A DNA stretch of 64,000 nt from Selenobaculum gibii (lineage in GTDB: Bacteria; Bacillota; Negativicutes; ICN-92133): positions 1,279,501 through 1,343,500 of the forward strand of contig NZ_CP120678.1 of the NCBI RefSeq assembly GCF_030273445.1, read 5' to 3'. This document shows positions 12,940 through 14,420 of this stretch, piece by piece. Within the stretch, counting starts at the first letter, position 1. Every line of letters begins with the position of its first letter. The translations under genes were made by a program, and so were the position numbers. The notes under the pieces were generated by a model. That model saw only the letters and a list, made by a program, of their open reading frames with translations, did no database searches and was not told the origin of the DNA.

Positions 12940-13003
12940 TGGCGGAGAGGGTGGGATTCGAACCCACGGTCCCTTTGACAGGACACTTGATTTCGAGTCA
13001 AGC
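12940..13003 (-). pseudogene. 3' part of tRNA-Ser(CGA), likely attachment site
   Basis: Read on the minus strand, the sequence gives an intact anticodon arm (CTTGA CTCGAAA TCAAG, anticodon CGA), a serine-type long variable arm, a T arm (GTGGG TTCGAAT CCCAC), the acceptor strand CCTCTCC and GCCA. The 5' half is missing: nothing upstream reads GGAGAGG or a proper D arm. This is the usual footprint of an integrative element that recombines into the tRNA 3' end. The integrase gene begins 45 bases away. Confidence 0.8.
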
Positions 13004-13047
13004 ACTACCCATCTACCGTGCACGCAAACGCATACCCCTTTTCTAGT

Positions 13048-14004
13048 TCATATTTTCATAAGTAGCGCTTTTTTCTTGCCCGTGCTTCGTCCAAGTAAGT
13101 TGGCAATCGGGGATGCCGTTTGGTGTGCCTGCTGAATATCTGCTTCCAACAAAGCTACATAGTTTTTGGTTTGTTCCAACTTGCTATGTCCCATAATTTT
13201 TTGCAGGGCAAATACACCTGTCTTGGAAGAATTCCGTAAAAAATAAAGCGCAAAAGTATGCCTCAAGTGATACGGTGTAATTTGCGTACCTGTCGTTTTC
13301 GAATAAGCCCTAAATCTATCCCTCAAATCTCCTGTGGTAATTTCTTCTCCGCGCCAGCTACAAAAAACAATTTCGCCTTCCCAACTTGCATGTCGATAAT
13401 GAATAAGCTTTTTGACCGCCGACACACACACATCTGACAACGGTAAAGTTCTTTTCTGCTTTGTTTTTGTAATACTTTCTCTTAAATACAAATAACTACT
13501 GGCAAAATCAAAGTCAGCGATACATACTTGAACCAACTCATTCGGACGAATACCCGTATCTAAGGTCAAAACCATTGCCGTATAATCGCGTAATCCAGCC
13601 CAAGTATTTCTGTCTGGTGCATCCAAGAGTTTTCGGATAACTTCCTCACTATGTTGAACAATCCGACCGCTATGCGGTTTATATTTTATTACCGCACAAG
13701 GATTTTCATCTAAATATCCCTCACTTACACAATACTGTAGAAAACCACGAATCGCCTGCAACTGCTTGTTATAATGCTCATTGTTTTTTCCGCTTAAAAA
13801 CTGCAGCGCTTTAAGTTTCAAGCTTTTTTCTGTTATTTCTCCATCAAAACTGGCAAGAAAGTGCCTCAGAGTATGTCGGATAGAATTAACCGTATACTTC
13901 GATACTTCGGCTTCCCGTATCAAAACATACTCCTCCGCCAATAACTCAAAATCAGCTACCTTTTTAATCTTCATTAGTATTCCGTCTTTACTTTTTTTGA
14001 ACAT
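13048..14004 (-). CDS. Tyrosine recombinase (integrase) beside tRNA-Ser
   Basis: This 318-residue integrase has a SAM-like core-binding domain at about 15-105 and a catalytic domain at about 115-290. The catalytic set is complete: R153 (GIRPNEL), H246 and R249 (HLRH), H273 (GHS) and Tyr282 (KNYVALLEAD). The gene is open throughout. The upstream ATG is preceded by GGGAGG inside a hairpin (see 14005-14039); a second Met at residue 11 is an alternative start. Partial tRNA-Ser copies lie on both sides (12940 and 14362), so it probably inserted the element that now remains only as this gene. Confidence 0.92.
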   Translation of the reverse strand: MFKKSKDGILMKIKKVADFELLAEEYVLIREAEVSKYTVNSIRHTLRHFLASFDGEITEKSLKLKALQFLSGKNNEHYNKQLQAIRGFLQYCVSEGYLDENPCAVIKYKPHSGRIVQHSEEVIRKLLDAPDRNTWAGLRDYTAMVLTLDTGIRPNELVQVCIADFDFASSYLYLRESITKTKQKRTLPLSDVCVSAVKKLIHYRHASWEGEIVFCSWRGEEITTGDLRDRFRAYSKTTGTQITPYHLRHTFALYFLRNSSKTGVFALQKIMGHSKLEQTKNYVALLEADIQQAHQTASPIANLLGRSTGKKKALLMKI

Positions 14005-14039
14005 AAAAAAACCAACCTCCCTTATTGGGTACGTTGGTT
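14005..14039 (-). promoter_or_regulatory. Attenuator-like hairpin over the integrase start
   Basis: On the minus strand, AACCAAC pairs with GTTGGTT, with an inner CCC/GGG pair, followed by a run of U that ends at the integrase ATG (14004). The Shine-Dalgarno GGGAGG lies inside the stem. It could terminate read-through transcription, block translation, or both. Confidence 0.5.
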
Positions 14040-14196
14040 AAGAAAACGTGACACGATTTTAAACTCGCTCAGTCTCGTTTTTTCTCTCTCATTCGTTATC
14101 ATCTTCATCAAAAGTTCTAACGTCCCAAAGTCATATTTCTTTGGGTTTCGAGAGTCTCATCCGAGGCTGATAAAGCCGCGTCATCATTGAATTTAC

Positions 14197-14241
14197 TGGA
14201 GCGGGTGAAGGGATTCGAACCCTCGACCCACGGCTTGGGAA
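14197..14241 (-). pseudogene. 3' part of tRNA-Gly(CCC), likely old attachment site
   Basis: On the minus strand the sequence reads from the anticodon loop (TTCCCAA) through GCC, a T arm (GAGGG TTCGAAT CCCTT) and the acceptor strand CACCCGC to TCCA, closely matching bacterial tRNA-Gly(CCC). The 5' side of the anticodon stem and everything before it are lost. It looks like the break point of an element that used a glycine tRNA. Confidence 0.65.
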
Positions 14242-14361
14242 ATCATCATTTTACAGGCTTTCATTTCATCTGTAACCAAAACGTTACAAAAAAAACTATT
14301 TCTCCCATTTTATCGCATCAAAAAAGTCTCCAACAAAAACGTTGAAAGCCTTAATTTTTCT

Positions 14362-14420
14362 GATAGAGAGGGGGGAGTCGAGCCCACGGTCCTTTGACAG
14401 GTCATTTGATTTCAAGTTAT
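14362..14420 (-). pseudogene. Decayed second copy of the tRNA-Ser 3' part
   Basis: It follows the copy at 12940-13003 over its whole length (for example GACCTGTCAAAGGACCGTGG in place of GTCCTGTCAAAGGGACCGTG), with many substitutions in the T arm and acceptor. It has the same orientation, 1.4 kb away, with the integrase between the two. Best read as the other end of an integrated element, or the scar of an earlier one. Confidence 0.65.

Follow-up and report, generated by a model that had tools for sequence, protein, structure and literature searches.

Composite islands and tandem accretions of integrative elements, as described in two published accounts (PMC8978831, PMC7168690), hold several elements side by side and show mosaic recombination. 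The locus described here resembles them in this respect; it differs in that ends of two tRNA specificities are intermingled, none of the elements being seen complete. A second comparison is with cargo transposons of the IS1182/IS1272 type, e.g. TnSha1, which according to the report (PMC4923244) have inverted ends at terminator hairpins and carry a passenger gene. A cassette within our locus is built alike, except that its passenger is a Thoeris gene pair and no transposase lies inside. The third is a tRNA-Gly(CCC) island of Sporomusa malonica (G120, C20:106414-125784), which shares with our locus an orthologous integrase, the spacing of this integrase from the tRNA sequence, the starting point of the tRNA repeat and nearby Thoeris genes. 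The S. malonica island has an intact tRNA gene and both ends, whereas our locus has one half-site and one end, and the Thoeris cassette is oriented oppositely relative to the integrase in the two.

The DNA analyzed here (the “window”) is a 64-kb stretch, G000:C1:1279501-1343500, of the one-contig, 2.68 Mb genome of Selenobaculum gibii. A first-pass annotation had reported a complete integrase between two partial tRNA-Ser(CGA) genes and had proposed either a minimal or collapsed integrative element at a tRNA-Ser site or tandem insertions of different ages. We consider the block to be, most probably, a decayed composite island between core-like genes, in which tRNA-targeting elements of at least two kinds have left fused ends. 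As the remnant of a composite island the block is ordinary in kind; what is usefully corrected is the likely target of its integrase, which very probably is not tRNA-Ser.

tRNA pieces in the window

The relatives compared are of the same class or phylum as the host, none being of the same genus or family. No tRNA gene was predicted in the 64-kb window using ARAGORN, so that all tRNA pieces in it are partial. A search for the T-arm motif along the full window, tolerating two mismatches at most, returned three tRNA pieces and nothing else. All three are 3′ pieces and follow each other on the minus strand in the order Ser, Gly, Ser, with the integrase located between the clean Ser piece and the Gly piece. 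The two related tRNA-Ser(CGA) segments of the first-pass annotation are thus present in the same orientation, and the integrase between them is complete; the Gly piece had been overlooked.

The intact integrase and its probable tRNA site

The integrase is encoded on the minus strand (13048-14004) by a complete ORF of 318 amino acids that matches PF00589 with an E value of 1.4e-28. Residues R153, K180, R248, H273 and Y282, which we take to be the catalytic residues, are invariant among 11 aligned sequences, the alignment having been built from tblastn-defined regions. At what we take to be the box II histidine position the protein has a tyrosine, Y245, instead of the expected residue. By its Pfam match and catalytic residues, the ORF is classified as a tyrosine recombinase.

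The overlooked piece (14197-14241, minus strand) is the 3′ half of a tRNA-Gly(CCC), from the anticodon loop on, and is the presumed half-site of the integrase. It is 96% identical to an intact gene over tRNA positions 31-75 (E = 1.6e-14), lies between the integrase and the decayed Ser piece, and ends about 190 bp before the start of the integrase gene. Orthologues of the integrase are found in S. malonica (84%) and G016 (74%). In both genomes an intact tRNA-Gly(CCC) precedes the integrase gene on the same strand, at a distance of 190-191 bp from its start. A 49-nt repeat of the tRNA-Gly 3′ part (C20:125736-125784) closes the 19.4 kb island in S. malonica, and the Gly half in the window begins within one base of the start of this repeat. 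The Gly 3′ part of G016 sits on another contig.

Searching genome contigs for homologues gave seven loci (S. malonica at 84%, the others at 25-54%) and searching viral contigs gave five, the latter being partial query matches at 23-50%; identities reached at most 29% in phage records and at most 32% in plasmid records. Among the 12 homologue loci outside the host's own genome, seven have an intact tRNA gene in the same orientation just upstream (three Gly(CCC), two Trp, one Leu and one Arg) and five do not.

Because two orthologues stand behind tRNA-Gly(CCC) and the window has a Gly half-site at the same spacing, the integrase very probably uses tRNA-Gly(CCC), and the two Ser pieces are very probably not its own repeats. 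Two Ser repeats in the same orientation, 1.4 kb apart around one intact integrase, are what would be seen if a minimal or collapsed element carried an integrase acting on the tRNA-Ser(CGA) repeats at its flanks. We regard this reading as very unlikely, given that the closest orthologues are found behind tRNA-Gly(CCC), that the Gly half-site is at the right distance, and that a different integrase is present at tRNA-Ser(CGA) in G033, G026, G027 and G036. This other enzyme is about 390-410 amino acids long, or broken, and its gene runs towards the tRNA-Ser(CGA) and ends 103-162 bp from the tRNA 3′ end. Note that an integrase located between two tRNA gene pieces need not use them; here a third half-site and the relatives revealed the likely target, and the result is a testable candidate for a tRNA-Gly(CCC) integrase whose half-site has been mapped.

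Immediately upstream of the Gly half in the window, the DNA matches no tRNA 5′ half and also lacks the conserved right arm that S. malonica and G016 share, which counts against a simple excised-circle junction. Only one Gly half-site is present, and no second att repeat bounding one element was found in the window. Excision of the block by the intact integrase alone is therefore not expected, as it would need a second Gly site. Other Gly sequences in the genome are the host tRNA-Gly(CCC), at a distance of 1.3 Mb (83%), a further 3′ half close to that gene (85%) and the tRNA-Gly(GCC) genes (82%); none of these is positioned to release the window block, which is probably immobile by the integrase route.

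In sequence, the 3′ half at C1:2571909 corresponds to the tRNA-Gly of the host itself. Together with that gene, 20.7 kb from it, it marks a separate island (G000:C1:2571909-2592657; L076 and L077), the copy lying downstream of the intact tRNA-Gly(CCC). When the right arm was looked for, a short A+T-rich resemblance was noted upstream of this 3′ half, too short to use. The same island has an integrase-like ORF (L077 1-806) with 25% identity to the broken second integrase of the window described below.

tRNA-Ser(CGA) pieces and islands in relatives

The clean Ser piece (12940-13003, minus strand) comprises the last 64 nt of the gene and is identical at 64 of 64 positions to tRNA-Ser(CGA) genes found in 12 relatives when 120 genomes were searched; all 12 are intact genes according to ARAGORN. 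The Rfam tRNA model gives it 28.4 bits, just below the cut-off of 29. A match to an Rfam plastid 3′ UTR family at 12943-12994 was rejected, since it comes from reading the tRNA 3′ end on the opposite strand. The decayed piece (14362-14420, minus strand) is 87% identical to the clean piece over 14366-14417 (E = 2.5e-10, whole-genome search), which bears out the earlier description of one clean and one mutated copy. With its 3′ flank (14316-14417) it is 81% identical to the tRNA-Ser(CGA) plus flank of G013. The 3′ flank of the clean piece (12828-12939, minus strand) contains a terminator-like hairpin. Positions 12828-13005 are 80.6% identical to the 3′ part and flank of an intact tRNA-Ser(CGA) in G012 (L064 18404-18579), and positions 12897-12998 are 93% identical to the distal repeat and flank of a Ser island in G027 (L072).

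Comparison with the host's own intact tRNA-Ser(CGA) had been proposed earlier. This gene (C1:2359208-2359295, 1.07 Mb distant) is only 83% identical to the clean piece over 66 nt, a mismatch that the first-pass annotation had overlooked. It stands near what is presumably a tadA-like gene, named from its translation, as does an intact tRNA-Ser(CGA) of G012. No integrase was recognized by translation beside the host gene among listed ORFs of at least 100 amino acids. The best matches to the clean piece in G004 and G001, the genomes with the closest lexA, are only 84%, like the host. The clean piece, by these identities, is not a copy of the present host tRNA-Ser(CGA). Since the host gene is at 83%, G004 and G001 at only 84%, and 12 relatives are identical, foreign origin of the piece appears likelier than later divergence of the host gene.

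The clean piece might instead be what is left of a whole tRNA-Ser(CGA) that once stood here and has since decayed. Its 3′ flank has a terminator-like hairpin, as native genes do, and 10 of 24 bases upstream match the tRNA 5′ half. This match is not significant, being equalled by shuffled upstream sequence in 17% of trials (p = 0.17), and an unchanged 3′ part beside an unrecognizable 5′ part does not fit uniform decay; we therefore think this unlikely. Both Ser pieces have the appearance of att remnants that differ in age and stem from other islands.

Islands of this kind are found in relatives. In the four genomes examined, further Ser 3′ copies in the same orientation as the intact gene lie 10.6-26.2 kb from it (12.3 kb in G036, 13.9 and 23.1 kb in G033, 10.6 kb in G012 and 26.2 kb in G027), and by these copies the gene is an integration hotspot in relatives. 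The earlier proposal thus stands as far as it concerns tRNA-Ser(CGA) attachment remnants of different age and such a hotspot, and is not supported as far as it concerns the integrase, whose site is very probably tRNA-Gly(CCC).

Fragment ends were compared using BLAST starts. Of eight Ser fragments, six have their first base precisely at ACTCGAAA in the anticodon loop, and the remaining two start one base and three bases upstream of it. For the clean piece in the window the start is five to seven bases upstream of this ACTCGAAA point, and the decayed piece differs in the anticodon-loop core. That both window pieces start near the point where the Ser-island repeats of relatives start would suit a passenger unit, i.e. 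a Ser-flanked 1.4 kb segment excised in trans by the Ser(CGA)-specific integrase of another element, in the manner of cis-mobilizable elements. We hold this to be quite unlikely: the anticodon-loop core differs in the decayed copy, the listed ORFs of at least 100 amino acids beside the host tRNA-Ser(CGA) include no integrase, and the arrangement was seen in no second genome among the integrase homologue loci inspected. A small passenger in which an integrase of one specificity lies inside the att sites of another tRNA, movable by either route, seems to us highly improbable.

The left part of the block has a counterpart in a G012 island. This island abuts an intact tRNA-Ser(CGA) and matches the window at 10347-11029 (86%) and, as given above, at 12828-13005, in the same order and orientation. 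A different gene, with no Pfam or PADLOC match, fills the position of the Thoeris genes, and the place of the window's type I R-M genes is taken by a type III methyltransferase together with a DrmD-like helicase. No tyrosine integrase was found among the listed ORFs of this island in the 8 kb beside its tRNA, and at that end it is therefore not a typical Ser island.

Two arrangements of tRNA genes were noted in these genomes. Within G012:C5:26754-60503 (L063 and L064) two intact tRNA-Ser(CGA) genes are separated by 23 kb and followed by a 3′ piece after another 10.6 kb. This resembles islands arrayed in tandem, a complete tRNA copy standing between them. In G045 and G027 (L069 and L071) tRNA-Gly(CCC) and tRNA-Ser(CGA) are only 3.3 kb apart and divergent; a donor of this type could account for Gly and Ser pieces being found together.

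Serine recombinase and Thoeris cassette

A serine recombinase gene (ORF 10459-11016; PF00239) and its upstream DNA occupy 10347-11029 on the plus strand, the 86% match at the nucleotide level (90% at the amino acid level) being to a gene in the G012 island that adjoins the intact tRNA-Ser(CGA). It is followed by the Thoeris cassette (11029-12823, minus strand), of which one inverted end is left and the other has been lost. The kept end (11029-11047) abuts the terminator-like hairpin that follows the serine recombinase gene. The cassette encodes ThsA, a macro-domain Thoeris effector (11095-11952, minus strand; PADLOC ThsA1, E = 6.7e-133; PF20016), and ThsB, a TIR-like Thoeris sensor (11949-12566, minus strand; PADLOC ThsB1, E = 3.4e-114; PF08937). 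With both genes side by side, this is a Thoeris system by gene content as judged with PADLOC and Pfam.

The cassette DNA is 93.5% identical to that of S. malonica and 92.7% identical to that of G035. In these two genomes the cassette is ended by 19-bp inverted repeats, each abutting a terminator-like hairpin, so that a copy of the hairpin is present on both sides; the hairpin is different in each of the three genomes (window 11029-12823, L087 8489-10715, L086 8669-10517). Sixteen bases of the cassette end were found in 31 of 399 genomes, and the reversed control gave zero in every row. By a simple test, 17 of 21 copies of the end (from 20 loci) abut a hairpin. The same test was positive for 5 of 19 inner sides; among random 40-mers from the loci concerned 9% passed, and among outer sides after shuffling 7%. 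In S. malonica, a DDE_Tnp_1_6 transposase gene stands beside a similar end that has two differences in 19; we assume that this type of transposase and end is that of the IS1182 family. The cassette was probably moved by an IS1182-like transposase.

No match to the cassette was found in plasmid records. Among 11 listed papers on Thoeris with insertion sequences, and among the 10 listed of 1,145 that combine two or more of Thoeris, IS1182, terminator and MITE, no title or abstract opening names a Thoeris cassette of this kind; we make no claim that it is unpublished. Terminator targeting by IS1272 of the IS1182 family, with a passenger gene, has already been published (PMC4923244), and the principle behind the cassette is thus known. 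In that paper the hairpin is reported to be partly deleted and the target not duplicated, compared with a hairpin copy on both sides of the cassette in S. malonica and G035.

The 19.4 kb island of S. malonica (L089 and L090; G120:C20:105500-130000) carries Gabija (GajA/GajB) as well as Thoeris defence genes. It presumably also carries radC-like and primase-like genes.

The decayed module and proposed assembly of the block

Right of the tRNA pieces is a decayed lysogeny-type module (15700-17926, plus strand). It consists of a short repressor-like ORF recognized by eye, an IrrE/ImmA-like gene (PF06114) and a second integrase that is split into two ORFs, the SAM-like and PF00589 pieces being separate. 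In G036, translated matches at 32-58% identity keep this order next to a tRNA-Ser(CGA), and the second integrase is for this reason the better candidate for a Ser(CGA) enzyme, although such modules are common. It is 37-51% identical over 45-72 amino acids to Ser-island integrases and also matches integrases that are not tied to tRNA-Ser. No tRNA-Ser gene or remnant was found to the right of it (17926-18122), either by reading or using ARAGORN.

From what is observed directly (the identities, the half-site positions, the Gly association in two relatives and the mismatch with the host tRNA-Ser(CGA)), the following assembly is proposed for the composite island. The intact integrase and the adjoining Gly half-site would together form an end of an element whose recombination takes place in the tRNA-Gly(CCC) anticodon loop. 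The clean Ser piece, its flank and the serine recombinase beyond may represent the tRNA-proximal end of a tRNA-Ser(CGA) island, because the serine recombinase and the Ser flank are collinear with the Ser(CGA) island of G012. The decayed Ser piece would be an older attachment remnant, possibly of the element to which the broken second integrase belonged; this link is based on gene order and on the 37-51% identity over 45-72 amino acids. The pieces were probably acquired from other genomes. Successive insertions and deletions may then have brought the ends of the Gly(CCC) and Ser(CGA) elements together, joined by deletion or illegitimate recombination, with decay presumably following. The composite reading does not account for how the Gly element end was severed, since the DNA upstream of it resembles no tRNA 5′ half and is not the right arm either; this counts against it. 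The fused ends stand next to Thoeris and type I R-M genes, an example of how defence genes come to adjoin scrambled island ends.

Chromosomal locus

Right of 18.8 kb the window has the look of core chromosome by translation, with genes that we take to be lexA, nifJ, pnp and infB, among others. Genes to the left of the window are presumably hflX-like and a PLP-enzyme gene. The latter is the direct, convergent neighbor of lexA in 7 of 29 loci of relatives and was not found within the available stretch in the other 22; in the host, the two genes are 19 kb apart and not convergent. No true empty site was seen among the relatives, all of which are outside the host genus and family. A tRNA gene was present at lexA in none of the 23 loci scanned, the host's included (2.2-3.6 kb each, of 30 fetched). 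As all 23 are without one, the locus does not look like a tRNA site in relatives. The earlier view of the locus as a tRNA-Ser site is not supported, given this and the distance of 1.07 Mb to the host tRNA-Ser(CGA).

Two RNA structures were noted further right. The hairpin at 19466-19527, between lexA and nifJ, matches an Rfam animal microRNA family far below the cut-off and is most likely a shared two-way terminator. A T-box leader at 23104-23332 on the minus strand (Rfam, 102 bits) lies directly upstream of the nifJ-type ORF starting at 23068.
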